This document shows positions 42,349-61,324 of a stretch of 64,000 nucleotides of DNA, piece after piece. Every line of letters begins with the position of its first letter. Position 1 is the first letter of the stretch. Source of the stretch: Halorubrum hochsteinianum. GTDB taxonomy: Archaea; Halobacteriota; Halobacteria; Halobacteriales; Haloferacaceae. Both the position numbers and the translations under genes were made by a program. The DNA is taken from positions 2,666,001 through 2,730,000 of the forward strand of contig NZ_CP098415.1 of NCBI RefSeq assembly GCF_023702125.1, given 5' to 3'. Under the pieces are notes generated by a model that worked only from the letters and a program-made list of their open reading frames with translations, was not told the origin of the DNA and did not search any database.

Positions 42349-42522
42349 CTACGCTGCGCGTTTCAGCACTTGCGGAGTCATAACGACTGCCATGACAGCA
42401 AGACCAAGTGCGAACAGGCGCGGGACTCCAGTAAAGAAGGTGACCCCGATTACTGCGACAATCGCTGCCTGTGTGAGTGCAATGCCGTAGCGGACTACTG
42501 GTCGCCCAAGGATGGAGGACAT
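42349..42522 (-). CDS. 57-residue membrane protein
   Basis: A short gene with ATG at 42522 and stop at 42349-42351. The product starts MSSILGRPVVRYGIAL and has two hydrophobic helices (about 12-30 and 35-50), ending QVLKRAA. It resembles the 74-residue protein at 52318 (KRPVVRWGIAGVYLA ... PSALKD), both in the R-P-V-V-R-[YW]-G-I-A start and in layout. AT-rich sequence with attaataac upstream may serve as promoter. The family is unknown; similarity to a second island gene makes it credible despite its size. Confidence 0.6.
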   Translation of the reverse strand: MSSILGRPVVRYGIALTQAAIVAVIGVTFFTGVPRLFALGLAVMAVVMTPQVLKRAA

Positions 42523-43792: not shown

Positions 43793-44446
43793 ATGGACGT
43801 TTCACAGTTCACGTCCGAACACGGCCCGACCGACAGCGACGAACAGTTTCAGTTGGAGAACAAGTATCTGCTCGACGTCGCCGTCGACGGGAGCGTCGTT
43901 GCGAAAGCGGGTTCGATGGTGGCGTTCACCGGGGACCTCTCGTTCACCGGTTCGGCCTCTGCGGGGGGCGGTATCACGGGCTTCCTGAAGGAGGCCGCCA
44001 CCGGTGAAGGGACACCGGTGATGACCGTCGGGGGACACGGCGACGTGTACCTCGCCGATCAGCAAAAGAAGATACAGGTCCTTCACCTCGGCGCCGACGA
44101 TGCCATCACGGTCAACGGCGAGGACGTGCTTGCGTTCGAGGACCGCGTCAAGTACGAGATCAGCACCATCGACAGTCTGGCCGGGTCCTTCGCCGGTGGG
44201 TTCACGAACGTCTACCTCGAAGGCCCCGGCACTGTCGCAATCACCACGCACGGCGACCCGGTCGTGCTCGAACCGCCGGTGTCGACGGACCCGAGTGCGA
44301 CAGTTGCGTGGAGCGGCGTGTCACCCGACGTGAAGATGAACACGAACCTCTCCGATATGGTCGGCCAAGAGTCCGGCGAGCGTTTCCAGATGAACTTCGA
44401 CGGCGCCGGCGGGTTCGTCGCTGTCCAGCCGCACGAGGAGCTGTAG
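43793..44446 (+). CDS. AIM24 family protein
   Basis: A 217-residue protein of the AIM24/TIGR00266 family, beta-rich proteins of unknown biochemical role (in yeast linked to mitochondrial inner-membrane organisation). Family marks are VAKAGSMVAFTGDLSFTG, GGGITGFLKEAATGEG, GHGDVYLADQ and SFAGGFTNVYLEGPGTVAIT. I start at the ATG at 43793, which has a TATA-like element at leaderless distance; an in-frame codon at 43736 lies before it. Gene GC is like the core genome, so it may be an older passenger in the island. Confidence 0.9.
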   Translation: MDVSQFTSEHGPTDSDEQFQLENKYLLDVAVDGSVVAKAGSMVAFTGDLSFTGSASAGGGITGFLKEAATGEGTPVMTVGGHGDVYLADQQKKIQVLHLGADDAITVNGEDVLAFEDRVKYEISTIDSLAGSFAGGFTNVYLEGPGTVAITTHGDPVVLEPPVSTDPSATVAWSGVSPDVKMNTNLSDMVGQESGERFQMNFDGAGGFVAVQPHEEL

Positions 44447-44619: not shown

Positions 44620-45556
44620 TTCTAGGAAACGGACTTCCGAGCCGCGACCGATCGAGGAAGACGGTGAGCGACGTGGCAGCGGGTCGGCAGGCTCACACAA
44701 CAATAATCCCGATTCCCATACTTGCGTGGAGCGCACTAAACCGCTGCTGGAGACGAGGCCGTAGGAAGCCGCGCCAGCCTAACTCCTCTAGCCCGCTGGC
44801 CATTCAGCGGTTATTCGGAAGCAAATGGCGCGATAGCACTCTTTGAAATGGCCATGAGATTCTTTTACCATGTGATCGTACTTGTGGAACAGTCTCTCCG
44901 TCAGACACAATGGCCAGGTGTTTTTTATTGGCCGGTTTTAATTAGCAATCGATGATTGAGGGAGTTTGGCTAAGTCATCCACATGGCGTACTCCTCAACA
45001 CTGGGGCAAGGAGTCTGACCGGTATTGTGTTGACTATCGGGTTTGTCGTTGTGGTGAATCTCGCGATCAAGCTAATCAAAAGTATGTTCAACTAATCAGC
45101 TTTGTTGAGCTACTATTTTTAAAATACAGTACTGCTTGGAACAGCAGGTCGATGAGACTGCGTCTACCCTTATCTGGGCTGACACAGAGGATAATAATAT
45201 GCCGGATATTAGACCCGAGAAAACCGTCATCTAACTGAAACAGTCCTACCGATAGGTCTTGGTCTTCTACTGGTCATGTACACCATAGCCCGGTGGACAG
45301 ACATTCGCACCTACACTCCCTCGATTATCGGGTATTTCATCCTATGTATTGATCTCTCGTTGTGGGGTGTTTCACCTAATCGGCGCTGGTGACATTACTC
45401 ATCTGTACTGACCGCAAGAGAGACAAACCACATATTTTAATTATTTTAACAGAGCTAATTAGCTACAAAATCACAAACAGCACCCAACGAATAAATCCTC
45501 ACTATGATCGCAGGTTATGTTCGATACTCGGGGGAGCTGCCCACTCAGAACACGTC
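44620..45556. other. AT-rich, gene-poor stretch
   Basis: About 940 bases with markedly lower GC than the core. It contains one short possible membrane peptide gene (44952-45095). Near 45240-45390 a stretch on the plus strand reads VLPIGLGLLLVMYTIARWTD without a proper start, probably a remnant of a membrane protein gene. Nothing else is supported. Confidence 0.5.
44952..45095 (+). CDS. Possible 47-residue membrane peptide
   Basis: ATG at 44952 to TAA at 45093-45095. The product MIEGVWLSHPHGVLLNTGAR is followed by one strong hydrophobic helix (GIVLTIGFVVVVNLAIKLI) and a short basic end. An AT-rich stretch (ggttttaattagc, about 44934-44946) lies just upstream. It has no relatives I can name. 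It could be a small toxin-like or peptide-precursor gene, or chance. Confidence 0.35.
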   Translation: MIEGVWLSHPHGVLLNTGARSLTGIVLTIGFVVVVNLAIKLIKSMFN

Positions 45557-46129
45557 TCACTCTAGATCTAACACATAGCGGATAGTTGCGCCACACCCAT
45601 GCGCAATCACTAGTGCCGGCAACAAGATAGCAGAAAACCCAACGAGAGCCGGGAATAGATCAGGAACGGATCCAACAGCGATTGCGGCAACGATGACTGA
45701 AAACACGCTTGTGAGAACCGTGACTGCTAGTAGTGTTTCAACGGCCCGGGTTATCGTGTAGATGGTCGATATGACTCCTTGGCCATCGGTGAACGAGACC
45801 CCGTGACGTCGGACCTCGACTTGGGCATGAAATAGTAATAGAGACGACAGTACACCGAGCGAAACAAATGCGATAGCCGCGATGACGCTGCCGATACTAA
45901 GAATGGTCGTCTCACCCTCTATGGCGGTGAAAACGCCAAACGTGACGAAGGGAACAGATAATATACCAACACCGATCGCGATGACTGCGAGAGCGGCCTC
46001 GACGTAGAGACCGTTTGCGGCTACCCACGCACCGAATCGCTCTGTGCGTGAGCGTAACGGAGGCTCTGGCCCAGTAGGCTCGTTTGGGGAAGTCTGCTCT
46101 GTATCCGCCGTACTGTTGGAGGGGTCCAC
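45557..46129 (-). CDS. Four-helix membrane protein, unknown function
   Basis: A 190-residue protein with a soluble acidic N-terminus (MDPSNSTADTEQTSPNEPTG), then four hydrophobic helices at about 43-66, 75-98, 125-150 and 155-178. It ends CGATIRYVLDLE. No family is recognised. A TATA-like cttatgcgg (46155-46163, minus strand) lies 26-34 bases before the ATG, so it is leaderless. It is the first of the membrane-protein genes of the island. Confidence 0.72.
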   Translation of the reverse strand: MDPSNSTADTEQTSPNEPTGPEPPLRSRTERFGAWVAANGLYVEAALAVIAIGVGILSVPFVTFGVFTAIEGETTILSIGSVIAAIAFVSLGVLSSLLLFHAQVEVRRHGVSFTDGQGVISTIYTITRAVETLLAVTVLTSVFSVIVAAIAVGSVPDLFPALVGFSAILLPALVIAHGCGATIRYVLDLE

Positions 46130-46324
46130 AACAGGTGTACTGAACGACTGACCCGCATAAGTTCCTTACTGGCTGTTTCCCAGAGAGCAACTGTTGGCTA
46201 CCCTCCTCTTCACGAGTGGGCCTCCACGCTGTTACTGCTGTGACCTGTCTACGGAAGGAATCGGTTGATGGTTAAAACAACTGAATGAACCGATTTTGCT
46301 TCCCATTGGAAGAGTAAGACTCGA

Positions 46325-47044
46325 TCACACTGGGAGCAGTAGCCAGTACCCGGCGTGTGCCAAAATCGGTACGCTCAGATTCTTCGTTCGCTCATATCCC
46401 GCGCCCCAGAGAAGGCCTCCACAGAACGTGAATATCACTGAAACAAGCCCTCCGGAGAGGAGGAAATGTATCCCCCCAAACAGGAGAGCACCGATGACGA
46501 CGCGACCGGACGCTTCGAACGCATCTTCGAGAGTGTCATGAATGACTCCTCGAAACAAGAGCTCCTCTATCGGCGCCATAACGAGGAACATGATCGCGAG
46601 CCCGGGAACAGCGAGTTCTGGCTGTTCAACGAAGACACGCCACTTCGATACCCCGCCGCTGTGGCCACCGTGACTGAGACCGACCACGGGTAACAACGGC
46701 GTGATAATGTTCACACTCAGTTGATATCCCACCACGCCCGCGACGACCCATCCAAGCCCCTCCGCTGACGGCTTCTGAATCCGTTCCATAACACGGAAAT
46801 CGTCACGCCATCGGACGTAGCCGAGCACAACAAGCCCGAACCCGGGCTGTACGACGTAACCGCCTAGCAGATTCCCAAATACACTCCATATTGTCGAAAT
46901 CTCGGCGTATATCGGGGACACGACGATAATCGACACAAACGCACAGAAGACGCCCAGTGCTGCGAGTGTCGCGGCTCTGATGACAGTCTGAGAGCGATCC
47001 CATAACGCCGGGACCCGGGACGACAGGTCGGCTTTCGTTTTCAT
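46325..47044 (-). CDS. CPBP family intramembrane metalloprotease
   Basis: A 239-residue membrane protein with about seven helices. The CPBP (Abi/CAAX) motifs are in order: motif 1 EELLFRGVIHD (Glu-Glu plus Arg, near residue 160), motif 2 FGGIHFLLSG (His, near 190) and motif 3 ILAHAGYWLLLPV (His, C-terminal). These form the glutamate/histidine active site. Bacterial relatives process or give immunity to bacteriocins, or mature membrane proteins. A minus-strand gtattaac about 27-33 bases upstream fits leaderless transcription. Context with two ABC transporters favours a peptide-related role, which is inference. Confidence 0.9.
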   Translation of the reverse strand: MKTKADLSSRVPALWDRSQTVIRAATLAALGVFCAFVSIIVVSPIYAEISTIWSVFGNLLGGYVVQPGFGLVVLGYVRWRDDFRVMERIQKPSAEGLGWVVAGVVGYQLSVNIITPLLPVVGLSHGGHSGGVSKWRVFVEQPELAVPGLAIMFLVMAPIEELLFRGVIHDTLEDAFEASGRVVIGALLFGGIHFLLSGGLVSVIFTFCGGLLWGAGYERTKNLSVPILAHAGYWLLLPV

Positions 47045-47069
47045 GCTTCACTCACGGGGAGTCAGCCAG

Positions 47070-47279
47070 TTAATACGGATTTGGGCGTTTCACCTTGGGA
47101 AACAACGCGTTCACAGCAGCGTCGAGAATCAGTATACAAAGCGGTTGCTTATCTCGTTTTAACCGTCTCTCGCGCGCAATCTCATTAGTCACCCATTCCC
47201 CAGATAACCCCGGAACAGCCGTCTCTCCACTGTCAAAGTTGAATCCTGAATAGCCCTCTTCTCGGAGATCCTGCCTCAC
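47070..47279 (-). CDS. Possible fragment of an unknown protein
   Basis: A 69-residue open frame from a GTG at 47279: VRQDLREEGYSGFNFDSG, then VPGLSGEWVTNEIARERRLK and a C-terminal ILDAAVNALFPKVKRPNPY. It reads more like the end of a longer protein than a whole one, and the frame directly upstream is closed by stops. It may be a remnant. The stretch 47280-47433 holds nothing else I can support. Confidence 0.3.
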   Translation of the reverse strand: MRQDLREEGYSGFNFDSGETAVPGLSGEWVTNEIARERRLKRDKQPLCILILDAAVNALFPKVKRPNPY

Positions 47280-47433
47280 ACGCTCTCAGTCCTTCATTAG
47301 TCATCTCATTGAGCAATTCCGATGATAAGCATTTGCTCTGTATTGTACACGATCGGTCAGAATGTATCACTTCCTTAGAATTTTGACAGAGTCGGAGCTG
47401 CCAATACCAGCCGAGCACTCGCACGGCGTTGGC

Positions 47434-48828
47434 TCAGGCGCCTGGGAGCGCCCACTTCCACGCCGATCTGAAGATGACGACGCCGAACGGGCCACCGAAC
47501 CCGGCGGCGACCGCCCCAACGGAGGGAGCAGAGTAGGCGATCCCGGCGACAGCGGCGGCACCACAGGCTCCGACCACGGCTATCACTCCGGCGACGCGCC
47601 GATCGAGTGGGCCGAACGCCGTCGTCTCGACGGGGAGTTCGAACGCCCCGACGGCCTGGTTGTACTCTCGGAGGTGTGCGACGCTGTAGTCGTACTCACC
47701 CGCAAACGTGGTGATCGAGAACGTCCGAGTGCGACAGGCGCGGTCGACGAGCTCTCCTTCACACAGCTCGGCGTCCCAGATGTCGTCGATGGGGGTTGCC
47801 CACTGGACTGTCTTGGTGAGGTCGTCGTACGCGACTACCGTTTCGTCGCGGCGCTGGTACGTCAGCGTGCCGTGGGCAAGAGCGTACTCGATGGCTTTCA
47901 GCCCGCCGATGCCGGCTGGTAGGAGGCCGAAACAGACCACCGCGGCGGTGAGCGCCCTTACCGACCCGGCGGTGAGCCCGACCCACGCGAAGAGATATAC
48001 TGGCCCGCTGCTGACTGCGGCCGTCGCGCCCTGCCAGAGCGCGGTGGCCCGAACAGCGCGCCGGCCCGGACGGACCTCGGCTGCCGGTGGCGCGTCTGGA
48101 GCCGCCACCGGCGGGAGCGTTCCTTCTCCCTCCTCTGGGTCGAACGCCACCCCGCTGCGGTAGCCACGCCACTCCGCGAACAACTTCACCGCGACGAACG
48201 CGACCAGCGCGCCGGCCGGGCCACCGACGATCGCGACTATGAGTGCCACCACGGCCAGCGTGCCTTCAGTCGTCGCGCTCGCGACGACGTCTCGGGGCGT
48301 GCTTATTTCGTAGCGTCGCGTCCGGAAGTACTCGCGCTCTATGACGCCGATCTGGGAAACGATGAGGAAGACGATGCTCGCCGCCACGCTTGGGTCGGCA
48401 AGCGTCGCCGGCACGTCGACGAACCGGCCCAATACGAAGAGGAACGCCCCGGCGAGCGAGACGGCAGCCCCGAACGCCCGCAAGGCAAACGGGACGTTTC
48501 GAGGGTAGATCGGGGGGAGCGCTTCGATGATCGCGGCGCTTCCGCGCCGGCGGTTGAGGTCGCTCGGGCCGACGGATACTCCGCCTGACTCGTCAGACTT
48601 GAGCGGGTTGTCCTCGTTGGGACGCTCTAGCTCGTCGTAGTTCGGCGGGCGGCGCGCGAACAGCGCCTTCACCCCGGCGAACGGGACGGCGACGACCAGT
48701 TCGATCGCATAGACGACCGCGAACGTCTGGGCGCTCCACCCAAGGTAGAACACGCCGACTAGTGGGACGACGTTCGCTACGACTGTCAGCAGAAATCCAG
48801 CAGACGAACCGTTCGACCGTGACGCCAT
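47434..48828 (-). CDS. Polytopic membrane protein, DUF6498-like with PH-like domain (copy A)
   Basis: A 464-residue membrane protein with about ten helices. The N-terminal part has the pattern VVPLVGVFYLGWSAQTFAVV ... KALFARRPPNYDE, then LPPIYPRNVPFALRAFGAA, and EREYFRTRRYE. A soluble segment near residues 330-400 (YALAHGTLTYQRRDETVVAY to LTKTVQWATPIDDIWDAEL) looks like a bacterial PH-type domain. A second gene of the same design lies at 50123. It is preceded by a lipoprotein gene with 69 bases between. The DUF6498 link is from memory and moderate; the function is unknown. Confidence 0.72.
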   Translation of the reverse strand: MASRSNGSSAGFLLTVVANVVPLVGVFYLGWSAQTFAVVYAIELVVAVPFAGVKALFARRPPNYDELERPNEDNPLKSDESGGVSVGPSDLNRRRGSAAIIEALPPIYPRNVPFALRAFGAAVSLAGAFLFVLGRFVDVPATLADPSVAASIVFLIVSQIGVIEREYFRTRRYEISTPRDVVASATTEGTLAVVALIVAIVGGPAGALVAFVAVKLFAEWRGYRSGVAFDPEEGEGTLPPVAAPDAPPAAEVRPGRRAVRATALWQGATAAVSSGPVYLFAWVGLTAGSVRALTAAVVCFGLLPAGIGGLKAIEYALAHGTLTYQRRDETVVAYDDLTKTVQWATPIDDIWDAELCEGELVDRACRTRTFSITTFAGEYDYSVAHLREYNQAVGAFELPVETTAFGPLDRRVAGVIAVVGACGAAAVAGIAYSAPSVGAVAAGFGGPFGVVIFRSAWKWALPGA

Positions 48829-48897
48829 CGATTCAGTATATGTCAGTAGTCGATAAAAGCTGTTGATGTGGGATCTATTGAGCAGGCGGAGCCGGTA

Positions 48898-49806
48898 CTA
48901 CCCGGCAACGGGTCGCTCGCTCCGATTAAAACCCCCGTACGAAAGGTCCGCGGTGTACACCTTCCCATCGTAGCGCACCAGCCAGGTACCACCGTAGCTG
49001 TCGGCCTCGATTGCCGACTCCGCCGAGAACTGGTCCATTATCGACCGGAACGACTTGTCGTCGGTGTCCTCGGCGTAATAGACGCCGTCGATCGCCTCGT
49101 TCATCACTGACCGCTCGCCTTCCGAGAGCCCGGACAGTCTGAATAGATGCTCATCGCGAAGCTGTTGCGCGTACGAGTTAGTGCTATCGGCGACCCTGCT
49201 GACGGTGTAACGGTACCGGGTCAGCGTCACCTCTCTGCGTTCCTCCAACACGAAGGGGTAGACGGTGCCATTGTACCGAACGGCGCTGTACTCGCCGGAC
49301 AACAACACGCTCTCGTTGGTTTCCGCTATCGTGTACTCCTCCGGGATGGCGATTTCGGGGCCGGGACTGAGCCGGGGCTCGCGCTCGCTCGTAGCCGTGA
49401 GCAAATCACCTAACAACCGGCGGTCACGCTCGGAAAGTTCCTCGAACCAGACTGTCTCGTCGGCTGGCGCTGTCCCGTTGAGATCGACGCCGACGGCGAA
49501 CGCGGTTCCGGGCTCGGTGCCGGTGGCGTTCCAGTCGATCTCGTAGTAGCTGCCCTCGTATGCGAGCGGTAGTCCCCGCTTGACCGGCGGATCAGTAGCC
49601 ATGGCTGTCCCCGAGCCGTCCTTGATCGCCTCTCGGACCACCCGTCGGTCGTCAGGAGCTGGACTATCCACGACGGCCGGCCGGCTGGCGGCTTCTGTAA
49701 TCTCCGCGTCGTCCGCGGTCTCCATGGACAACGATCCCGTTGCTGAGCAGCCTGCGAGCGCCACCAACGCCAGTAGGCAGAGCGCTGCGAGCGCTTTGCG
49801 TTCCAT
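48898..49806 (-). CDS. Lipoprotein, unknown function (module A)
   Basis: A 302-residue secreted protein. The signal peptide MERKALAALCLLALVALAGC ends in a lipobox LAGC, so the Cys at residue 20 would carry the lipid. The mature part is acidic and beta-rich (YEIDWNATGTEPGTAFAVGV, YNGTVYPFVLEERREVTL) with several N-x-S/T sites that could be glycosylated. A helical part (YAQQLRDEHLFRLSGLSEGE) follows. It stands directly upstream of membrane protein copy A on the same strand. A TATA-like ctatttacc lies about 28 bases before the ATG. Confidence 0.75.
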   Translation of the reverse strand: MERKALAALCLLALVALAGCSATGSLSMETADDAEITEAASRPAVVDSPAPDDRRVVREAIKDGSGTAMATDPPVKRGLPLAYEGSYYEIDWNATGTEPGTAFAVGVDLNGTAPADETVWFEELSERDRRLLGDLLTATSEREPRLSPGPEIAIPEEYTIAETNESVLLSGEYSAVRYNGTVYPFVLEERREVTLTRYRYTVSRVADSTNSYAQQLRDEHLFRLSGLSEGERSVMNEAIDGVYYAEDTDDKSFRSIMDQFSAESAIEADSYGGTWLVRYDGKVYTADLSYGGFNRSERPVAG

Positions 49807-50122
49807 ATCGGAAGTCGTTCTCTCTCCGGTAAATAGCTGGAGGCCGCGTTACACATCCCGCAACAGGGATAATCGCGCTAGACAGGATAAGCCACTCATT
49901 TACCGGAATCAACTGGCAGTAGCTACGAACTACACGAAAGGCCGCAAGCGAGTGAGTGTAAGAACTTCTTGCTCTGTGGGATTACAATCGGAAGCTACGC
50001 AGGAACGACAGGAGCGGTGTCGGGAGAAGTGATTGAACGATATCTTGAGGAAATAAACATGGATCAAGTGTCTGGCTTCCCTTCGACTCCGGTGGGTCGA
50101 TGAGCTTGCCCTCGCAGATCAT
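49807..50122. other. Intergenic region, no clear gene
   Basis: About 316 bases. A frame without a start codon (about 49892-50104, plus strand) reads GSYAGTTGAVSGEVIERYLE and may be a remnant. I see no other support. Confidence 0.4.
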
Positions 50123-51523
50123 TTAGATTCGAGCGAGCATCGCATATATGAGGACGCTGAGTAAAATCATAAAAAACGGTGCGATCAACACTGTGACAGC
50201 CGCCATTTCTGTGCCATTCACTTGGGGGGAGCCAAGCAGCAGTAGTGGAACACTAAGGAAAACTAGTGCCAACACGAGTGCGGCACCGACGACTGCGGGA
50301 TCCTGCTCAGGGCGTTCCTCGTGTTTGATCGGCAGATCAAGTGTCTCGGTCGCGTGGTCGAGATCAGCGACAGGACCAAACTGAACTGTGTTTGTCGGGG
50401 CTGTTTCGACGTTTGAAATCCGTAGTGTTCCGGTACCGAATAGGCGGTCAGGAATGGCGTTCTTGATTTTAAATCGTGCTCGCGAGTGAATCGGAACTAA
50501 CCACTGCGGCGCATCAAGTACGGTATCGTATGCGACGAGCATCTCACCACGCCGTTGGTACTCAATAGTGCCGTACCGGAGGTAGTAGCTCCCGGCCCGG
50601 ATGATAAAAATTCCCAGTAGCACCGCGAGGCCAATGCCGCCCCACAAAAAATGCGCTGTAACCATTGCGGCGACAACACCAACCAGCAGCAGCGCGACAC
50701 CACGATTGACTATCGCGAGCAGTATTGTGGTGGTGCTTCCAAGTAGTACAGATCGAGGGTTGACTGTCACTCGTGCCTGAACCGGCTCATCTGGGAGGCT
50801 TAGCTCTGGTTGCGACCGACTGAACTCACGGTCAGCGCTCAGTCGGTCAAAGAGCCCTTGGAATGCGCTTGCTATTGGACCGGAAGACTCCCACGATACA
50901 GCGAGAATTGTTTTAATGATCACAAATCCTCCAAGCACAGCTACTCCGGTTGACTGGCCCATTGACAGACCGATCACCCCCAAAAACATCATCCCAAGCG
51001 TGAGCTGAGACGGTTGTCGTAGAATTTCACGGGCAGACACGTTCTCGTATGTCTTCCCCCCGAGATACTCACGGCGAAACTCGATCCCGTGTGCGACTAT
51101 GAGGGCACCAATACTCACAGCGACCTCCCACGAAAGCACTATTGATGTTTCAATCAACGCCCAGGAGAGTACCGTAATCGGCACAATAGTAGAGGCCCAA
51201 ATACCGAGGATTGACAGCGCAAACGGCACATTACGGGGGTATATTGGTGGAAGCGTTGGGAGAGGGCGCCAACCACCCCGTTTGTGCCGTAGTTCATGAA
51301 GGGGTTCTCGTTCTCCAACAACATCGGGAGATCCTTGCTTTGCGAACAACGACTTTACGACGCCGAGGAGGACTGTACTAAATGCTTCAACCCAGTAGAG
51401 TAACAAAAGTGTCCAAATATTCCAACCACCATAGATTACGCCAGCTAAGGGGAGAAGATTTGCTCCGATGATCACAAGATCTGTAGCTGACCGGTTCGGG
51501 ACCGTGGAGGGCACACCGCGCAT
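50123..51523 (-). CDS. Polytopic membrane protein, DUF6498-like with PH-like domain (copy B)
   Basis: A 466-residue paralogue of the protein at 47434. The ATG at 51523 gives MRGVPSTVPNRSATDLVI and a length matching copy A (464); longer in-frame starts overlap the next lipoprotein gene. Shared blocks are NLLPLAGVIYGGWNIW, VKSLFAKQGSP, LPPIYPRNVPFALSILG, EFRREYLGGKTYE and YGTIEYQRRGEMLVAYDTVL with WLVPIHSRARFKIKN. Identity is scattered, so the duplication is old. GC is lower than in copy A, which hints at separate origins. The function is unknown. Confidence 0.72.
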   Translation of the reverse strand: MRGVPSTVPNRSATDLVIIGANLLPLAGVIYGGWNIWTLLLLYWVEAFSTVLLGVVKSLFAKQGSPDVVGEREPLHELRHKRGGWRPLPTLPPIYPRNVPFALSILGIWASTIVPITVLSWALIETSIVLSWEVAVSIGALIVAHGIEFRREYLGGKTYENVSAREILRQPSQLTLGMMFLGVIGLSMGQSTGVAVLGGFVIIKTILAVSWESSGPIASAFQGLFDRLSADREFSRSQPELSLPDEPVQARVTVNPRSVLLGSTTTILLAIVNRGVALLLVGVVAAMVTAHFLWGGIGLAVLLGIFIIRAGSYYLRYGTIEYQRRGEMLVAYDTVLDAPQWLVPIHSRARFKIKNAIPDRLFGTGTLRISNVETAPTNTVQFGPVADLDHATETLDLPIKHEERPEQDPAVVGAALVLALVFLSVPLLLLGSPQVNGTEMAAVTVLIAPFFMILLSVLIYAMLARI

Positions 51524-51653
51524 ACCGCGAATTATTTGCTCGTGATAGATATGTTCCCGTGATATCGCGTCAATGGTGTCTACCTGCTTGTCGTGGCTGA
51601 TCTCTCTGAGGTTTCGTTTATTGTGCCCTTGAATACAGCCGGTGTCGAGAGAA

Positions 51654-52148
51654 TCACCCAGTCTCGTTCCCCCGACCAAGATCAGAGAACGACTCACCCA
51701 CTCGAAGAGCGATTGGCTCAGTTTCCTCGCTTGAGCCGATGGAGATTGCGACGATCTCCTCTTCGGGGTTTGTAATTGAGAATCGCTGATTGAGCTGGGA
51801 TGTGCCTGCGACTTCGGTGTCCGAGAGGCTCAAATCGACTTCGTACTCACCAGAGGTGGTCCAGACCTCGCCATAAGCGACGATGTTGCTGTCTCCATCC
51901 GACTCAGTGGAAGGCACGTCGAATGATGTGTCAAGGACTGTCTCGCCGTTGGGATCTATGATCTCGATTGATCCACTGACCTCATGATTCAGCTGGTTGA
52001 GTAGATTCACTTGCTCGAAAATTTGGTTCCCGACCGCGTCGAGGACGGTTGTACAGCCCGCGGTTGAGGCGAGAGCGGCACTGGCTCCGATTGTAAGCGC
52101 TCGCCGTCGTGTGAGAGACTCGAATGTTGAACGCGTATTCTGATTCAT
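51654..52148 (-). CDS. Tat-type lipoprotein, unknown function (module B)
   Basis: A 164-residue protein with a twin-arginine signal (LTRRRALTIGASAALASTAG) followed by Cys, so export would be through Tat with a lipid anchor at the cell surface. The mature part is one beta domain (GSIEIIDPNGETVLDTSFDV, WTTSGEYEVDLSLSDTEVAG). I use the ATG at 52148 (MNQNTRSTFESLTRRR). It lies upstream of membrane protein copy B, mirroring the lipoprotein before copy A, although the two lipoproteins are not clearly related. Confidence 0.75.
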   Translation of the reverse strand: MNQNTRSTFESLTRRRALTIGASAALASTAGCTTVLDAVGNQIFEQVNLLNQLNHEVSGSIEIIDPNGETVLDTSFDVPSTESDGDSNIVAYGEVWTTSGEYEVDLSLSDTEVAGTSQLNQRFSITNPEEEIVAISIGSSEETEPIALRVGESFSDLGRGNETG

Positions 52149-52317
52149 TCGTGGAGGACATTTGATTGTTGGCACGGTTGGAAAGTAAAACCGCAGTGAG
52201 TGTCTCAGGCAGTGAAACCGAGTGGCGCAGGTCACGGACTGACGACATCTCTCCTGTTTCGCGTGTCGGTTATGTTATCTGAGCATTCTAATCTAATCCT
52301 TCGTTTGAATTAATATC

Positions 52318-52542
52318 ATGTGTGGCATTACAGAGAACATCGTGAACTACAAGCGGTTTCTCAAGAGACCGGTAGTTCGTTGGGGAATTGCTGGGGTCTA
52401 TCTTGCCACGTCGTTGCTGCTGCTCATCGTCATTGGTGACCTCCCCCGCCCGGACCAAATCGTGGTGACGGTGATGTGCGTGATCGGATTTTTTATTCTA
52501 CCGTCGGCGTTGAAAGACTTCGCGGAGTCGGGACCGATGTGA
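52318..52542 (+). CDS. 74-residue membrane protein
   Basis: A small protein starting MCGITENIVNYKRFLKRPVV, with two helices (about 25-40 and 48-64) and the end PSALKDFAESGPM. It resembles the 57-residue protein at 42349 in the RPVVR[WY]GIA start and helix layout. The upstream DNA is AT-rich (attctaatctaatcc, about 52283-52297). It is the only plus-strand gene among minus-strand membrane genes here, pointing at the gap before the ABC transporter operon end. The function is unknown. Confidence 0.6.
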   Translation: MCGITENIVNYKRFLKRPVVRWGIAGVYLATSLLLLIVIGDLPRPDQIVVTVMCVIGFFILPSALKDFAESGPM

Positions 52543-52635
52543 GCAGCGATGTCTAGCCGGTCAGAGAGATACCGGAGTTTGGTTATCTAGATCTCGGCTA
52601 GCACGGGAGAGACAGTAGAATACGTAGGGATCGAT

Positions 52636-54315
52636 TCAAACACCGGACGCGTAGACCCGACGCCGTCGTGCTGCGAGCATAACAGCGAAGACGCCGGCCG
52701 CAGCGAACACGAGTGGGACCGCGTTCGCCACACTTCGTGTGGTGCTTCCGACGAAGTCAGCGAAGTACCCACCGTTCAGCGGACCGATGTACCAGAGTCC
52801 GAGATATAATGCTTCGAACAGTCGAGGCGAGCCGGTCCAGAGCCCGGCCACGAGGGCAAGGGATGGCGGAAACAGGACCGTGCCGGCGATGCTTGCCAAT
52901 GCCGTCGGTCCAGCTGTTGCGGCAATGAGTACGAACGCACTTGAGCCGATTCCGATGGTGACCAGACAGCCAGCAAGCCACTCGGCAAGAAGCTGACCGA
53001 TCGGATACTCAGACGCGATGATTTGCGGTCGGACGCCGTGACGGGCGGTCCGGGACCCGATCCGAGACCAAACGAATAGCGGCCAGATCGACACCGGAGT
53101 GAGTAGGCGACGGGGTGATTCGATCCCACCACTGGTGAGAACAATTCCCGCCGGGATGACGATCAACAATCCCGCACCGACATACCACCACCGTGGCTGC
53201 TCTCGGAGCAGCCGCCGAAGTTCAAGCCCAATCACTCGTCTAAATCCACCAGCACCACGCTCGGTAACTGAGGGTAGTGACATGCTTTCGACGGCGACGG
53301 GACTCTCAGCTACTACCGGACGGCTAATCGTCTCAGACCCAGCGACTGTGGCAGGGGAAACTGCTTGTTGTTCGGTAGTTCCGAGAGGAACCTGCTGGGA
53401 AACCCAAGAGAGGAGACCAGAACGCTCCGCTCGAAACCAATCAAACGGTAGTGCTGCGATAAGAGTGAGACTGAGCGCAGCGACGAGCGTTCCGAGCCGC
53501 TGAACAAAGAACCATGTCGGCCACGGCCCGCCGGTATATGTGAAGGTTCGAGCATTCGACCCGCCCGTTCCGAAGCTCGCATAGCCACCTTCGAATCCCG
53601 GTACAGCGGTCTGTATCGACTGAAACGTCAGGTCATATGCCAGTGTGATTCCGATGACGTCAAGCATCTTTACGATGGTCGGGACGGACGGCGGAAGGGC
53701 AGTTTCTGGCCGTAGCATCTGTCCAGAAATCAAAAAGATGGCTGCGAAAAAGTACGCCACTCTACCGAACGTTCCATCGAGAAACCCGATCGTTCCAAAC
53801 AGGAGTGCCACCGCACCAACGAACACCGTGAGCGGAACAACCATTACGAATACCGGCCACACGATTGCGACTGGAGCCGTCGAGCCCACGCCGTGGATGA
53901 CGTGGTTGATGACCGCGGCACCGCCGAGTACGGTAGCCGTCACAAGGCCGACGGCAGCATTACTGCTAAGCTTCCCGAGCAGGTACACGGGTTTGCTGGT
54001 CTGTGAACTCGACAAGACCGGTGCGTGTCCGTGGCGCTCGTCACGCGCAACAGTCCCACGCAACACGTAGAATCCAGCGAGTAGCATGACCATCGAACCG
54101 GCCATGCCAGCGTTGAGTCCAACCAGTTGTGAGGTCAAGGCACCGTTGATATTTGGCCCGTCAGTGACGGTATAGAAGACGCCAAAAGACCCCGAGTTGA
54201 TTAGATACCCGAGGTAGATGATGACCGCGAGAAAGACAAACAGTTTCCGAGACCGGAGCCGTGCGATGAAGTCCGTCCGAGCAACGTGGTAGGCTCGTCT
54301 CGCCTCAACTCGCAT
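52636..54315 (-). CDS. ABC-2 type transporter permease (system 1)
   Basis: A 559-residue membrane protein with about 12 helices in two sets separated by a soluble stretch (about 305-355). It starts MRVEARRAYHVARTDFIARL, a basic amphipathic start typical of ABC-2 permeases. Other marks are ARDERHGHAPVLSSSQTSKP (the conserved cytoplasmic loop) and LRREPRWWY-like LRRLLREQPRWWYVGAG at the second set. The start overlaps the end of the ATPase gene upstream by 11 bases, so both form one operon. Its size suggests a fused two-domain permease. It probably exports a peptide or lipid; the substrate is unknown. Confidence 0.82.
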   Translation of the reverse strand: MRVEARRAYHVARTDFIARLRSRKLFVFLAVIIYLGYLINSGSFGVFYTVTDGPNINGALTSQLVGLNAGMAGSMVMLLAGFYVLRGTVARDERHGHAPVLSSSQTSKPVYLLGKLSSNAAVGLVTATVLGGAAVINHVIHGVGSTAPVAIVWPVFVMVVPLTVFVGAVALLFGTIGFLDGTFGRVAYFFAAIFLISGQMLRPETALPPSVPTIVKMLDVIGITLAYDLTFQSIQTAVPGFEGGYASFGTGGSNARTFTYTGGPWPTWFFVQRLGTLVAALSLTLIAALPFDWFRAERSGLLSWVSQQVPLGTTEQQAVSPATVAGSETISRPVVAESPVAVESMSLPSVTERGAGGFRRVIGLELRRLLREQPRWWYVGAGLLIVIPAGIVLTSGGIESPRRLLTPVSIWPLFVWSRIGSRTARHGVRPQIIASEYPIGQLLAEWLAGCLVTIGIGSSAFVLIAATAGPTALASIAGTVLFPPSLALVAGLWTGSPRLFEALYLGLWYIGPLNGGYFADFVGSTTRSVANAVPLVFAAAGVFAVMLAARRRRVYASGV

Positions 54316-55174
54316 GCTCTACCGTCTGAAGGTATGCGTCTTCGAGCGATGCAGCGACCGGTTCGGCGTCGACAACCGGTGTATCAGCACTTACGAAGCG
54401 GACATCAAACCCGTCAGCCCGTCGGACGGTGTTACAGACTCGGTAGTTCTCGCGGACGGTTTCAAGCGTCGACGGCGACACGCGGGACTCGTAGACATCG
54501 CCTTTTACATTGTGAATGAGGTCGCTGGTGTCAGCGTGAGTAATCACCTCACCATCTTCTAGTACCGTGACCGTGTCCGCAGTCGCTTCGATGTCGGTAA
54601 CGACGTGCGTTGAGAAGATCACTACCCGGTCGTCAGCGGTGTCGGACAACACGTTCCGCATCCGAACCCGCTCTTCAGGGTCGAGACCGACGGTCGGTTC
54701 ATCGACAACGAGCAGTTCAGGATCGTTCAACAGCGCCTGTGCGATGCCCGCTCGTTGGTGCATCCCTCCTGAAAACGTATCGAGTCGGCGGTCTCGAACA
54801 TCGGTGAGATTGACCAGTTCGAGCAGCGCCTCAATCCGTGCGCTGGCCGTTTCGGCGCTGAGTCCCCTGAGTGCCGCTACGTAATCGAGGTACTCTTCCA
54901 GCGTCAACGTCGGATACGTGTCGAAGTCTTGAGGAAGATATCCGAGAACCCGCCTGACAACACCCGGTGATTCGGTCACAGCGGTCCCGTCCCAGTATAT
55001 TTCTCCCTCCGTCGGTGCCATCACCGTCGTGAGCATCTGCATGAGCGTTGATTTTCCCGCACCGTTCGGCCCGACGAGCCCGTGAACGCCGGCGTCTAGT
55101 TGTAGTGTCACGTCGTGGACGCCCCAAGTGTTCTCGCTGTACCGTTTTCCGAGCGCTTCCGTTCGGAGTCGCAT
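54305..55174 (-). CDS. ABC transporter ATP-binding protein (system 1)
   Basis: A 289-residue ATPase. Walker A is GPNGAGKST (about 37-45), the Q loop YLPQDFDTYPTL, signature TFSGGMHQRAG, Walker B LLVVDEPTVGLDP and the switch His in VIFSTHVVTDIEAT. The C-terminal extension (about 215-289) is typical of ABC-2/CcmA-like ATPases. I start at the ATG at 55174 (MRLRTEALGKRYSENTW), which is 25-32 bases after the TATA-like gatataaac (55198-55206, minus strand); longer frames upstream pass through that promoter. It is the first gene of the two-gene operon. Confidence 0.9.
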   Translation of the reverse strand: MRLRTEALGKRYSENTWGVHDVTLQLDAGVHGLVGPNGAGKSTLMQMLTTVMAPTEGEIYWDGTAVTESPGVVRRVLGYLPQDFDTYPTLTLEEYLDYVAALRGLSAETASARIEALLELVNLTDVRDRRLDTFSGGMHQRAGIAQALLNDPELLVVDEPTVGLDPEERVRMRNVLSDTADDRVVIFSTHVVTDIEATADTVTVLEDGEVITHADTSDLIHNVKGDVYESRVSPSTLETVRENYRVCNTVRRADGFDVRFVSADTPVVDAEPVAASLEDAYLQTVEHAS

Positions 55175-55280
55175 GGCGTCCCAATCGTGTCTGAACGGTT
55201 TATATCCGCAGCAGATGTTTCTGGGTGTGTAACACAAAGGAAGGTAGTCCACGCTTCAGACTGGTGTTTCCACCATACCT

Positions 55281-55450
55281 GGCAAGAGACGAGACGGCGG
55301 ATACCCGCTCGTCGGAGCCGCAGTAGCACTAATCGCGGTCATCGGATGGATGCTTTTCGATTGGGTTTCGGTGTCGGCGACGGAACGGTGCCGCTGTTAC
55401 TCGGTCTGAGAGCGGCCGTGGTCGCCGTCGGCGTACGTCTCAAGTCGTGA
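55281..55450 (+). pseudogene. Frameshifted small membrane protein gene
   Basis: One frame reads GKRRDGGYPLVGAAVALIAV and IGWMLFDWVSV; after a shift near 55375 the next frame reads GDGTVPLLLGLRAAVVAVGV and RLKS with stop at 55448-55450. Joined, this is a two-helix membrane protein of about 57 residues, similar in design to the other tiny membrane proteins of the island. No start codon is evident. Confidence 0.35.
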
Positions 55451-55579
55451 CACACGGCGTGTACATCGCCGCTTACGGGGGTACGAGGCAGGACTCCACG
55501 AGTTCAGTCATGGGTGACTAACACGGGGAACCGACGACCGGCACAGGCGAATCTCTCCCCTTCCAGCGGTGTGAGGAGG
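55451..55579. other. Short gap, nothing seen
   Basis: The remainder of the 405-base interval between the two ABC systems. No gene or repeat was found in it. Confidence 0.4.
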
Positions 55580-56380
55580 TCACCCAATCTGGACGTCTCG
55601 GAAACCGAGATAGCCGCCTACAACCGGCACGACGAACCAGACAAGCAGGAGACACACCGGGAGCCAAACCGACGCAAACGGGTCAGTACCGAAGAGCCGG
55701 CCGTCAACGGTGGCCCGGAAGCCGGCTATAGCCGCATTATTGGGTGGGAGTAACCCAACCATCTGTAACCACGCCGGCTGGCTACTGGCCTCCATCAAGC
55801 CAAGTTCGACGGCGCCGAATTGAATACCCCTCTCAATGAGGTTCCACAGAGCAACCAAGATCATGTAGGCCCCGACAACTATCGCCGTAGCGCGATTGTC
55901 ACTCGCACTGGCTGCTGAAACGCCAACACCGATCGCAACGAACACCACCCCCATCACGCCAAGGAAGCCGACAAACGGAATCAGAATGCCGATCTCACCG
56001 CCAAGCAATGCGAAGACGACGAGCCCGGTGGTGAGGCCGCCGACAAGTGTCGCGATGAGCATCAGCACCGCCCGGCCGAGCAGTTTCCCGAGGAGTATGT
56101 CGCTGCGCGACGGCGGCAGGCTCAACAGCACTCGGAGCGATCCAGATTCACGCTCGCCAGTGATCGATCCCTTGGCGAGAATGAGTGCGATGATCGGAAG
56201 GGTGGTCACAGCGAGCTGGAATGCGAGCCCGAACACCTCTCGAGCCGGCATACTGGTTGTCGCCGCAACGAGGCCCGTGACCCCGGCCATCGACAGCAGG
56301 ACGAGTACGGCCACCACCCAGAGCATCTTCGACCGGCTGGCGTCGGCGAGGTCCTTCCGAGCGATTGTTCCGACGCTCAT
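55580..56380 (-). CDS. ABC-2 type transporter permease (system 2), NosY-like
   Basis: A 266-residue permease with six helices. It starts MSVGTIARKDLADASRSKML, the usual amphipathic start, and has the loop KGSITGERESGSLRVLLSLP followed by SRSDILLGKLLGRA, the mark of NosY-type permeases. The ATG at 56380 shares one base with the TGA of the ATPase gene (TGATG), so the two are co-translated. NosFY-like pairs handle very different substrates, so the substrate stays open. Confidence 0.88.
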   Translation of the reverse strand: MSVGTIARKDLADASRSKMLWVVAVLVLLSMAGVTGLVAATTSMPAREVFGLAFQLAVTTLPIIALILAKGSITGERESGSLRVLLSLPPSRSDILLGKLLGRAVLMLIATLVGGLTTGLVVFALLGGEIGILIPFVGFLGVMGVVFVAIGVGVSAASASDNRATAIVVGAYMILVALWNLIERGIQFGAVELGLMEASSQPAWLQMVGLLPPNNAAIAGFRATVDGRLFGTDPFASVWLPVCLLLVWFVVPVVGGYLGFRDVQIG

Positions 56381-57330
56381 CACGCGACACCCCCCGGCGC
56401 GACCGGTTCCCCGTGACTGTTCGATGTTTCCTCATTAGTGTAGCTGGCGAACAGGTCCTCCAACGATGACTCCTCGATTCGGACGTCCGTGACCGTGGTC
56501 ACCTCGCGGACCCGATCGATGAACTGGAGCTTTGCCGCCGGCTCGAGACAGGTCCCTCGGACGACCCCGTCAGCCACCACGACATCGCGAACGTTCGGCA
56601 GGTCGTCCAGTTTTTGGTCCGGTTCTCTGTTAACCTCAAGTGCCACCTGCGCTCCGGTGTCGAGCTGTCCCCTGAGCCGATCGATAGTATCAGTTGCGAC
56701 GACTTGCCCGTCGTTCATGATCCCGACTCGGTCGGAGGCCGCTTCGACCTGTTCGAGAATGTGACTCGAAAAGAACACCGTCGCCCCTCGCTCGTTTTCA
56801 TCGCGGATAAGTTCTCTGAGCTCCCGAGCGCCGTTCGGGTCCAGACCGCTCGTCGGTTCGTCGAGGATGAGCAACTCCGGCGACCCGACCAACGCCATCG
56901 CCAGCGCCAGTCGTTGGCTCATCCCCGTGGAGTACTCCCCCGCCGAGCGGTTTGCGTCGTCTGTAGACAGTCCGACCCGGTCGAGTAACTCGTTCGGATC
57001 GTCGGCGGCTTCTTTCAACTCGATAGCGAGTTCTACGTGTCGGCGGCCGCTTAGCCGGTCGTATAGTCCGTAGTTCTCTGGCACGACGCCGATCCGACCG
57101 TGGAGTGCCTCGCGGTCCTCGGAGACGTCCAGTCCGAGCATCGAGGCCGTTCCAGTCGTCGGCTTGACGAAGTCCAGAAGCACGTTGATTGTGGTCGATT
57201 TCCCGGCGCCGTTCGGGCCGAGAAATCCAAATATCTCGCCCCGCTCGACGGTCAGGTCTATCCCGTCAACAGCGGTCACGTCACCGAACTGTTTCGTCAA
57301 CTCATTCGTCTCGATCGCGGGGTCTGTCAT
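56380..57330 (-). CDS. ABC transporter ATP-binding protein (system 2), NosF-like
   Basis: A 316-residue ATPase. Walker A is GPNGAGKST (about 38-46), the Q loop VVPENYGLYDRL, signature EYSTGMSQRLALAMAL, Walker B LLILDEPTSGLDP and the His switch VFFSSHILEQVEAA. About 90 residues of C-terminal extension follow (VALEVNREPDQKLDDLPNVR). The ATG at 57330 has a TATA-like gttttaacc about 29-37 bases upstream. It is the first gene of the operon with the NosY-like permease. Confidence 0.92.
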   Translation of the reverse strand: MTDPAIETNELTKQFGDVTAVDGIDLTVERGEIFGFLGPNGAGKSTTINVLLDFVKPTTGTASMLGLDVSEDREALHGRIGVVPENYGLYDRLSGRRHVELAIELKEAADDPNELLDRVGLSTDDANRSAGEYSTGMSQRLALAMALVGSPELLILDEPTSGLDPNGARELRELIRDENERGATVFFSSHILEQVEAASDRVGIMNDGQVVATDTIDRLRGQLDTGAQVALEVNREPDQKLDDLPNVRDVVVADGVVRGTCLEPAAKLQFIDRVREVTTVTDVRIEESSLEDLFASYTNEETSNSHGEPVAPGGVA

Positions 57331-57424
57331 CCGTATATGCCTCGTGACGACGGCTCTCGGGTTAAAACGCGAGTTAGTGTGTCCGAGCCTGAAACATCGT
57401 CTCTATCTCGGGTTCGACGACATT

Positions 57425-57460
57425 GACATCCTCCCCGCGCTGAAGCGCGAGGCTTTCTAC
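57425..57460. repeat. Hairpin resembling the end of an IS200/IS605-type element
   Basis: The stretch GACATCCTCCCCGCGCTGAA, then GCGCGAGGCTTTC, contains a GCGC-TGAA-GCGC stem extended by CCTC...GAGG. I recall this form from right ends of haloarchaeal IS200/IS605 or IS1341 elements. No transposase or TnpB gene adjoins it, so it would be a remnant. Confidence 0.5.
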
Positions 57461-57532
57461 TCGATTCTCCGTAAGTTTCACAGACGGAAACGGTCCTGAC
57501 TGAACTTTTATTTCAGACATATAGATCCAGCC

Positions 57533-58180
57533 ATGACACGATGGTTTCCACCGCTGCCAACCTCGGTCCATGAGAAACCGTTGCGCGTCAGTTTTGATGT
57601 CCGCTGGGCAATCGCGTTCGTCGCACTCTTATTCGTTCACAACGAGATCCATGAGATTGCGCACACGGCAGTCGGTCGAGTGATCTGTGGAGCATGGGGC
57701 CCGCGAAATTTCAATAGCTGGCGGGTCGCATGTCAAGAAATAACGCCAGAGCTCGTCTTAGCACCTATCGCTGGGCTTGTTTTCAGCTATGGACTGATGT
57801 GGATTGGGTATCGTCTGCTAAGGCCGGGCGAGTCACCAACAAAACGATCACTCGGTTTCTGCCTCATATTTGCGGCAATGCCGTTCGGCCGGATATCGAC
57901 GGTAGCACAGTCTGGGGGCGACGAGATGGTTATACTCAGAGGTGTTTTTCCCGAGATAGACTCATTTTTCAGGCTTATGATGGGCATAGGCGTCGTTTTG
58001 GTTCTCATTTGCCCGCCTCTGTTCCGGGCTTTGTCCGTTCTGCCCCGGCGGCAGCAGTTACTTGTTTTTCCTGGGTTCTTACTGCTCCCGGACGCTTTGT
58101 TCAGGGTTCTCGTGTTGGGAGTAGCCAATCCCCTTCTCGAGCAGGGGATACTCAGTACCTCACAAAGCATCCTCGGCTAA
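57533..58180 (+). CDS. Membrane protein with HEIAH zinc-protease motif
   Basis: A 215-residue protein with about five helices. In the first helix HNEIHEIAHTAVGRVICG holds HExxH (HEIAH, about residues 41-45), as in site-2-protease (M50) type membrane metalloproteases. A later Asp (LLLPDALFRVLV, about residue 192) is a possible third ligand, as the Asp in M50 LDG/NPDG motifs. Overall similarity to M50 is weak, so activity is inferred. TATA-like cttttattt (57505-57513) lies 20-28 bases before the ATG at 57533. It faces the two ABC systems and could process an exported peptide. Confidence 0.7.
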   Translation: MTRWFPPLPTSVHEKPLRVSFDVRWAIAFVALLFVHNEIHEIAHTAVGRVICGAWGPRNFNSWRVACQEITPELVLAPIAGLVFSYGLMWIGYRLLRPGESPTKRSLGFCLIFAAMPFGRISTVAQSGGDEMVILRGVFPEIDSFFRLMMGIGVVLVLICPPLFRALSVLPRRQQLLVFPGFLLLPDALFRVLVLGVANPLLEQGILSTSQSILG

Positions 58181-58261
58181 CTGTTTCTAAAGCCTGAGTT
58201 CTGTGACGAAGCGGTTCACTGACGGTCTCGACGAGAGAATCTTCGACGAACCGACGGAGAG

Positions 58262-58298
58262 CTGTCGCTGTCGGCGGCGGCTGCCGCCGACGCGACAG
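58262..58298. repeat. Strong hairpin in the 3' part of the ISH3-like element
   Basis: CTGTCGC-T-GTCGGCGGC (58262-58278) pairs with GCCGCCGACGCGACAG (58283-58298) around GGCT, a 16-bp stem with one bulged T. It lies between the transposase stop and the IS end and could stop transcription or control translation. Confidence 0.75.
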
Positions 58299-58333
58299 TG
58301 TCGCCACTCCCACTGGAGGCTGTCTGGGTGTGA

Positions 58334-59500
58334 TTACCGGGTAAACCGGTCGTCCGGTGGTCGGTTTGCGGGGACGGCCCGACGCACCGCGAGGGCCGTC
58401 CACGCTGCCCGTCGAATCATATTGATGAACTCCTTGAACGACCACTCCCAGAGGCGACGCCCGCCTCGGCGGGGCGTCGCCACGTACTCCCAGTGCAGAT
58501 ACCGCCAGACGTTCTGTAACAGCAAGCTCACCACGACGTACAACAGCCGTACGACCGGATTCTGTGTCGAGGTCGTCGCAATACTTTGCTCGGAGAGCCG
58601 ATAGCTCGACTCGATACCGAAGCGTTTCGCGTAGTGGTATCGAGCGTCTCGTGGTGAGTCGATGAACGGCGCGTCAGCGGCGTAGCCGTGACGCGCCACG
58701 CCATGGTCGTCGTACCGTCCGTTTTGGTAGGTACAGTCGATGTAGACGGGAAACTCGACGGTCCAACTGTGACCGTCGAGTTTCGCCGTCATGTCGTGTT
58801 GAATCACGCGACTCCAGCCTTCCGAGAGTTCTTGCTTGATCGTCTGTCCCCAGCGGACGATCGGCATGACGTAGGCGTGGTTGTGCGCCTGAAGCAGCGT
58901 CAAGCACTTGCTGTCGTAGAATTCACGGTCAAGAAAGACGGCCTTGACGTCGAGGTCAAGGCCGTCGAGAATACCAAGAAACTCTGCGAGGACACTGCTG
59001 GCGGTGTCGCCGTCTTCGAGACGGCGCACCGCCAGCGTGTAGCGCTTGTTCTTTACACGCGCGTAGAGTGTCGCGTAAGCGTGGAACGCGGTGGTTCCAC
59101 GCTTGGCTTGGGAGTGATAGAGACCGTCTGTATCGTCTTCGTCGCCGTAGTAGGGCCGCAGGTGGAGGTCTGAAACGACCTCCACCTGCTCGGGGAGGAC
59201 ATCGAGAACGTCTTTCTGGAGGAGCGTATTACCAACTTGTTCGAGCGTCTCTAGGTCGAACTCGGTACGGAGGTGGTAGAGAACCGAGTTCTCGTGGGGT
59301 GCATCTTCGCTTCTCTCACAGAGCGTTGAGACTGAGGTCCCGTCGGCGCAAGCGCCGACGAGGACCTCGTAGATGTCTTCAGCATCGAGTTCGGCGTTTT
59401 CAGCGAGTGTGAGAGCAACTTCCTCGTCAAGAGCATTGACGAGGAAGTTAACGAGTTGGTCCTCGTGGATTGAACCGTCTGCTTGCTGGGTTTTAGACAC
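58334..59500 (-). CDS. ISH3-family transposase
   Basis: A 388-residue transposase with a GTG start at 59500 (MSKTQQADGSIHEDQLV). The N-terminal part is helical; catalytic Asp residues are in LRPYYGDEDDTDGLYHSQAK (LHLRPYYGDE, about 119) and KAVFLDREFYDSKCL (about 215), and the Glu in AKRFGIESSYRLSEQS (about 300). The order and length match ISH3. The frame is intact up to the stop at 58334, so the element may still move. Confidence 0.85.
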   Translation of the reverse strand: MSKTQQADGSIHEDQLVNFLVNALDEEVALTLAENAELDAEDIYEVLVGACADGTSVSTLCERSEDAPHENSVLYHLRTEFDLETLEQVGNTLLQKDVLDVLPEQVEVVSDLHLRPYYGDEDDTDGLYHSQAKRGTTAFHAYATLYARVKNKRYTLAVRRLEDGDTASSVLAEFLGILDGLDLDVKAVFLDREFYDSKCLTLLQAHNHAYVMPIVRWGQTIKQELSEGWSRVIQHDMTAKLDGHSWTVEFPVYIDCTYQNGRYDDHGVARHGYAADAPFIDSPRDARYHYAKRFGIESSYRLSEQSIATTSTQNPVVRLLYVVVSLLLQNVWRYLHWEYVATPRRGGRRLWEWSFKEFINMIRRAAWTALAVRRAVPANRPPDDRFTR

Positions 59501-59630
59501 ACCTTCTACAAGCAGACCTTCTAACTAAGCGGCTTTGTGAAGTACTGAAGCTTCCCCATCACCGAAGACACCAGTCTAGATCATAGGACTGACCCTATGG
59601 CATCTATGTCATCTGCTGAAGATTTCGAGT

Positions 59631-60866: not shown

Positions 60867-61321
60867 GGGTCCTCGTTCTCGTACTGGTAGGTCGGACGGA
60901 CATCCTCAAGGAGCGCTTCGATGATCTCCCAGAGGATCAGCGAGGGGGTCTCGTGGTCGAACGAGATTTCCCAGCGATCCTCTTCATTGACGGCAGAGTA
61001 CTGGAAATGCGTCCGTCCGAGATCGGGATGGTCTTCGTCCTGGTGCCAGCCAGCGTGAAAATCCGTGTTCGGGTCGGTGTAGTTGATACGGAACCAATCG
61101 TGTGGCTCCTGCCGGTACCATTTGATGGTTAGTTCAGGTGAGTCGGGGCCTGTCGGTGGGGCAAGACGAGCCGGATCGAAAACTGCTCGCAACTGCTTGG
61201 CCTCGATATCGTCAGGAACGAACTCAACCGTCGTAATCTGTGGTACTCGGTCGAGGACGTCCCGCTTCAGCTGGGCGTAGAAGTTCGCGTTCGGATCACC
61301 ACCTGGATGCGGGACCGACAT
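60863..61321 (-). CDS. Conserved small protein of unknown function, integrase operon
   Basis: A 152-residue soluble protein, MSVPHPGGDPNANFYAQLKR, then TIKWYRQEPHDWFRINYTDP, a His/Asp-rich AGWHQDEDHPDLGRTHFQYS and SLILWEIIEALLEDVRPTYQ. The mix of beta strands with a C-terminal helix recalls TumE-like small toxins, but only loosely. It sits between an HTH gene (3 bases upstream) and the integrase (4-base overlap), so all three form one operon. A toxin-antitoxin or integration-control role is possible and unproven. Confidence 0.72.
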   Translation of the reverse strand: MSVPHPGGDPNANFYAQLKRDVLDRVPQITTVEFVPDDIEAKQLRAVFDPARLAPPTGPDSPELTIKWYRQEPHDWFRINYTDPNTDFHAGWHQDEDHPDLGRTHFQYSAVNEEDRWEISFDHETPSLILWEIIEALLEDVRPTYQYENEDP

Positions 61322-61324
61322 CCG

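Follow-up and report, generated by a model that had tools for sequence, protein, structure and literature searches.

A mosaic island of recurrent envelope-protein genes in Halorubrum, tentatively linked to tolerance of membrane-active peptides

Haloarchaea antagonise one another with halocins, and loci of the halocin C8 type, which carry transporters, belong to this group; the resistance of haloarchaea to membrane-active peptides is little known. In Bacillus subtilis, the pair of PH-domain membrane proteins YdbST confers protection from amylocyclicin, SppA from lantibiotics and ABC transporters from SDP (PMC8144471). Leaderless bacteriocins are exported by PH proteins together with an ABC transporter (PMC8657885; PMC10311245; PMC11580447). 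Here we analyse a 12.6-kb tract of envelope-protein genes (positions 45557-58180) in a 64,000-nucleotide stretch of Halorubrum hochsteinianum DNA, hereafter the window (G000:C1:2666001-2730000, in a genome of two contigs). A first-pass annotation had seen in this tract a candidate system of peptide export, processing or immunity.

The tract lies in a plasmid-like island of the chromosome, a mosaic whose units come from a single recurrent pool of haloarchaeal envelope genes; we hold this conclusion with high confidence. As a tentative suggestion by analogy, the pool may be a system of tolerance to envelope stress or antimicrobial peptides (halocins). The two statements together form the reading favoured here, to which we assign a probability of about one half. 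The low-GC island is ~27 kb long and occupies positions 40000-64000 of the window and, beyond it, the sequence up to ~67.2 kb; the G+C content of the Halorubrum chromosome falls from ~0.70 to 0.48-0.66 at 40 kb and recovers at ~67 kb. The announced gene set is present, with a CPBP protease, two DUF6498 proteins, ATPase/permease pairs, two lipoproteins, a HEIAH protein and tiny membrane proteins, and nearly all genes of the tract do encode envelope proteins. On the minus strand, the order of transcription is K-J, I-H, F, E, D, C, B, A; G and M are on the plus strand. In the window, the genes chosen for comparison have open reading frames and are under purifying selection, the ratio of nonsynonymous to synonymous substitution rates (dN/dS) between relatives being 0.06-0.37 where dS is unsaturated.

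The tract had been taken for a single unit, which DNA comparison does not bear out: it splits into at least six units with differing closest relatives, namely A+B, C, D+E, F, H-K and M. The first is 88% identical to the DNA of genome G020. A (45557-46129) encodes a 190-residue protein with four transmembrane helices and no Pfam family, and B (46325-47044) a predicted CPBP/Rce1-like intramembrane protease (PF02517, 61.7 bits against a cut-off of 22.4), in which an EExxxR motif (EELLFR) and downstream histidine motifs are seen. The C unit (47117-48885) is 93% identical to DNA of a Halobellus and of Natrinema gari, the values for C being 91% in the former and 93-94% in the latter. The unit meets the A+B stretch within 3 bp (boundary 47114/47117), and a 69-codon open reading frame (ORF) at 47070-47279 crosses this recombination junction. 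Gene C itself (47434-48828) is found without other pool genes in several genera, in places near transposases; judged by this distribution, it is a separately mobile gene. D (48898-49806) and E (50123-51523) are 89-91% identical to DNA of H. aquaticum and H. ezzemoulense, and two further Halorubrum genomes also have D and E close together. F (51654-52148) has best partners with 70-77% DNA identity. Finally, H-K is 79% identical as a block to DNA of genome G021, where the order K-J-I-H is kept. This block may itself have two histories, because dS in G021 is 0.44 for J-K vs. 1.0-1.3 for H-I. Since each unit has its own DNA partner, a single operon or a single acquisition was rejected. Outside the tract, a block with an AIM24-family gene, X43 (43793-44446, plus strand; PF01987), is 94% identical to G021 at the DNA level, and X43 97% identical.

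A neighbourhood that recurs, whose absence the first-pass annotation had named as a refutation, was found in Halorubrum and on a megaplasmid of H. ezzemoulense, and around F it extends to Haloquadratum and to a plasmid of Halorientalis. In the Halorubrum genomes and on the megaplasmid, the families A, F, CPBP, DUF6498, the H/I exporter and M co-occur, with YdbS/YdbT-like PH-domain pairs, DUF3592 proteins and histidine kinases as partners. Genes in related loci were called with a simple codon-usage caller (ORFs of at least 40 codons). The fuller versions hold membrane and PAS histidine kinases, response regulators and helix-turn-helix (HTH) regulators as well as YdbS/YdbT-like PH pairs. Thus, ~20 kb of H. 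aquaticum reads CPBP, PAS kinase, E, D, F, A, HTH, CPBP, PH, PH, and the order in genome G174 is kinase-F-A-HTH-CPBP-PH-PH. The megaplasmid of H. ezzemoulense Fb21 has ~25 pool genes in 45 kb, including kinases, regulators, CPBP, M, F, A, a PH pair, DUF6498-like, DUF3592 and DUF4350 genes and broken I/H, and its block joins the PH pair to S49 peptidase, DUF4097, SHOCT and CAAX genes. In another family, a Halorientalis plasmid carries a histidine kinase, a bat-type regulator, a response regulator, a winged HTH protein, a second histidine kinase, F and a gene of pool family f49; the latter had been considered as a copy of A, an assignment rejected by alignment.

Two statistical comparisons bear on this clustering. 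Six of the 10 loci defined from the window fall within 20 kb in genome G026 (one contig), and 8 of 16 fall within 81 kb in G021; each density was reached in none of 20,000 permutations, a test that takes into account where the densest window lies but not the choice of widths, which were picked after viewing the data. Within the genus, A is present in 7 of 35 genomes and strong matches to F in those seven and one more (both, 7; F only, 1; neither, 27; Fisher p ~1e-6 by hand, uncorrected for kinship). A usually adjoins F, and does so in relatives whose A is down to ~34% identical; in several Halorubrum records, the gene immediately before F encodes a PAS kinase, and kinase remnants lie beside F in two Haloquadratum walsbyi. 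F, the most recurrent pool gene, encodes a 164-residue lipoprotein of the twin-arginine translocation (Tat) type under strong constraint (dN/dS 0.06-0.08). Of 170 Haloferacaceae genomes, 47 contain genes of its family, but most of the distant copies lack the surrounding pool. Lipoproteins related to D (302 residues) are present in 37 of 59 genomes and 15 of 23 genera. Both lipoproteins carry lipobox cysteines; D contains about three internal repeats, each ending in a VRYxGxVY-like motif, and its AlphaFold2 (AF2) model gave no usable fold, with a predicted local distance difference test score (pLDDT) of 32. Comparison with relatives places the start of E at ~51523, not 51697, and that of F at 52148; an apparent overlap of the two genes is not real, because both start sites shift inward. 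Elsewhere in the same genome, a bPH_2 pair stands ~2 kb from a distant F-like gene (L164:7132-10446), in an order also seen in G020 (L165).

The membrane proteins C and E both match DUF6498 (PF20108; 49.8 and 66.2 bits, respectively, against a cut-off of 23.7). For their C-terminal third, with the motif YxRYGTxEYQRRGDxLVAYD...PDRLFxTGTL..., AF2 predicts a beta-sheet accompanied by helices (pLDDT 80 overall). In structural alignments over residues 241-403 of E (VIA list), PH, PTB and Pru folds dominate with Z scores of 6-8, and the bacterial PH structures 3hsa and 3dcx are among the matches; a Z of at most 8 is modest structural support, and Foldseek alone is weak (E ~1). Neither protein matches the Pfam family bPH_2 (PF03703). 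Profile-profile comparison with haloarchaeal bPH_2 proteins gives an in-register alignment of the whole domain, spanning 89 columns (p 0.0006; a control family gave 0.35). We regard a PH fold as likely: both DUF6498 proteins probably carry a C-terminal PH-like domain, an assignment that is new here; our literature search found no paper naming DUF6498. Whatever the function of the pool, this assignment makes DUF6498 testable.

Two ABC-2 ATPase/permease pairs had been proposed, and both pairs, K-J and H-I, are coupled. K (56380-57330) and J (55580-56380) form a typical pair of ATPase and ABC-2 permease (PF12679). The second pair combines the ATPase I (54305-55174) with H (52636-54315), a polytopic permease of 559 residues that has no Pfam family match and whose gene overlaps I by 11 bp. 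For M (57533-58180, plus strand), described as a membrane protease, the HExxH motif in a membrane protein is confirmed; the gene is incomplete, its 3' end having been replaced by an ISH3-like element that supplies the last codons. Relatives of M have 234-283 residues and an additional C-terminal membrane helix. The H, E and H of HEIAH are invariant in four sequences, and an invariant GGDE could supply the third zinc ligand. M matched nothing in Pfam, and no convincing relative of M, F or E emerged from profile searches of the Protein Data Bank.

A role in tolerance is favoured because the pool, under two-component control, is made of parts like those of the Bacillus and bacteriocin systems; immunity is the most plausible of the three functions first proposed. 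In full versions of the pool, kinases would sense envelope damage and switch on the surface lipoproteins F and D. Membrane-anchored PH-domain proteins (E and the bPH pair) would bind or reshape the membrane, CPBP proteases would cleave membrane-inserted peptides or regulators, and peptides would be removed by ABC-2 pumps. The window would hold the effectors A, B, D, E, F and H-K, whose expression may be constitutive or controlled in trans, because the kinase cluster is absent from the window. Several points weigh against this picture. The tract has neither kinases nor a bPH_2 pair. Copies of C, J-K and D are found at a distance from the pool as well. G021 and H. ezzemoulense have interrupted copies of H; at a megaplasmid locus of the latter (L180:41213-46553), an ISH3 element with 84% identity to that of the window splits I, and a TnpB element splits H. 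The system would therefore often be dispensable. We know of no pool gene with a tested function in archaea, and the role rests on analogy. Shared plasmids and insertion hot spots alone can cluster accessory genes, and the permutations have no random-accessory-gene control behind them. A more ambitious version of the tolerance reading, that of an undescribed, plasmid-traded and kinase-controlled regulon of envelope defence that would protect haloarchaea from each other's membrane-active peptides, is speculative and, in our judgement, unlikely; its parts would be PH proteins (DUF6498 and bPH_2), Tat lipoproteins, CPBP proteases and ABC-2 pumps, possibly with an unmodified peptide toxin among the tiny membrane proteins.

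The strongest rival explanation is a chance collection, in which unrelated accessory envelope genes came together on plasmid-derived mobile DNA through shared vehicles and hot spots, with no joint function. The differing histories of the units, the independent movement of C, the many broken pool genes in relatives and the abundance of insertion sequence (IS) elements, plasmid-type integrase genes and remnants all fit this explanation. However, small-scale linkages (PAS kinase-F, A-F, HTH/CPBP2 and PH/PH) are kept over deep divergence, and the purifying selection on the genes is not what a chance collection leads one to expect. On balance, we consider it rather unlikely, if still a serious competitor.

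Production of a bacteriocin- or halocin-like peptide is a less probable explanation. According to it, K-J and I-H would export a small unmodified peptide, B would process it, and E and D would confer immunity. PH-domain proteins and ABC exporters are commonly found together in leaderless bacteriocin clusters, and here PH-domain proteins (E/C) do lie near ABC transporters (H-K). The only core-peptide candidate, and the one conceivable precursor among the small peptides seen, is a 47-residue, one-helix membrane peptide with a cationic end (44952-45095, plus strand; dN/dS 0.23), 60% identical in G021, a species that also shares K-J-I-H. Yet 7.5-12 kb separate its gene from those of the exporters, which lie on the opposite strand; the copy in G021, the one other genome to keep it, is ~4 kb from K, and the loci searched yielded no third copy. 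The proposal of a precursor among the tiny membrane proteins thus retains one conserved peptide and loses recurrence next to the exporters. Moreover, none of the gene calls of 40-320 residues in the window's island and 18 related loci encodes a Cys-rich peptide of the halocin type, and a locus like that of halocin C8 was rejected on this ground. Peptide export and processing as one locus is not supported by a tract assembled from units of different history, with C independent and M truncated. Because no precursor gene recurs beside the exporters, H-I included, and no Cys-rich gene is present in the screened loci, production appears less likely than tolerance, and we regard it as improbable.

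A last rival takes the tract for two ordinary ABC-2 efflux pumps plus envelope housekeeping genes that have nothing to do with them, serving the efflux of lipids or solutes or osmotic adaptation. It would agree with J-type permeases in 54 of 59 genomes, with common K-type ATPases and with H-I on Halobacterium plasmids devoid of the pool, but it does not explain why A, F, CPBP, PH proteins and kinases recur together, and is very improbable.

Mobile elements and small genes flank the tract. Identical 944-bp IS copies (DDE_Tnp_1; 41352-42295, minus strand, and 62587-63530) enclose much of the island, and a third copy, with 943 of 944 positions identical, is found elsewhere in the genome (L164:3677-4620); a composite transposon between the identical copies is unsupported, with no direct repeat common to their outer flanks. 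The ISH3-like element inserted into M (58151-59549, minus strand; transposase 58334-59500) has ends TCAGTACyTCACAAAG. Next to it, also on the minus strand, the integrase, a 152-residue protein and a DUF7342 protein are encoded at 59631-61864, in a block that is ~80-84% identical to one common to many haloarchaeal plasmids. A short stretch at 57374-57520 coding ESLALQRGEDVN is repeated at many places in related loci, some copies with stops, and is perhaps a mobile-element remnant. G (52345-52542, plus strand) encodes a tiny protein with two transmembrane helices, 57-58% identical in two other Halorubrum. It shares a PVVRWG/PVVRYG motif with g42 (42349-42522, minus strand), a 57-residue membrane protein of a family (PVVRWGxP...TPQxLKRA) that is present in many related islands and recurs there beside kinases. 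No structured RNA matched Rfam. PADLOC gave no match for 9 of 10 proteins, the tenth being a marginal JetB-like match outside the tract, and an anti-phage defence system was therefore rejected.

How, then, does the island compare with known systems? A survey of PSP envelope-stress systems makes no mention of Halobacteria, haloarchaea, CAAX, bPH or AIM24. Halocin C8-type loci differ from the loci screened here by their Cys-rich peptide. Haloarchaeal ABC-2 efflux operons resemble J-K, with its PF12679 permease and DrrA-like ATPase; in contrast, J-K here adjoins a second pump, H-I, whose permease belongs to no Pfam family. Leaderless bacteriocin clusters (enterocin DD14 with DdE/DdF and DdHIJ, geobacillin 6, lacticin Q) share PH membrane proteins, a multi-subunit ABC transporter and the lack of a modifying enzyme, whereas the tract has no identified core peptide and no bPH_2 pair. 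The sigma-W and LiaRS modules of B. subtilis (YdbST, SppA, YknWXYZ and others) resemble the fuller haloarchaeal versions in their PH membrane pairs, S49 protease, ABC pumps and two-component control. The haloarchaeal pool differs in having no sigma factor, and its role is assigned by analogy only; to our knowledge, the lipoproteins F and D and the DUF6498-PH proteins have no known counterpart in the Bacillus modules. If the favoured reading holds, archaea would possess an equivalent of the Bacillus sigma-W/Lia response, and F, A, the DUF6498-PH proteins, the PH pair, CPBP proteases and kinases would be its named genes.

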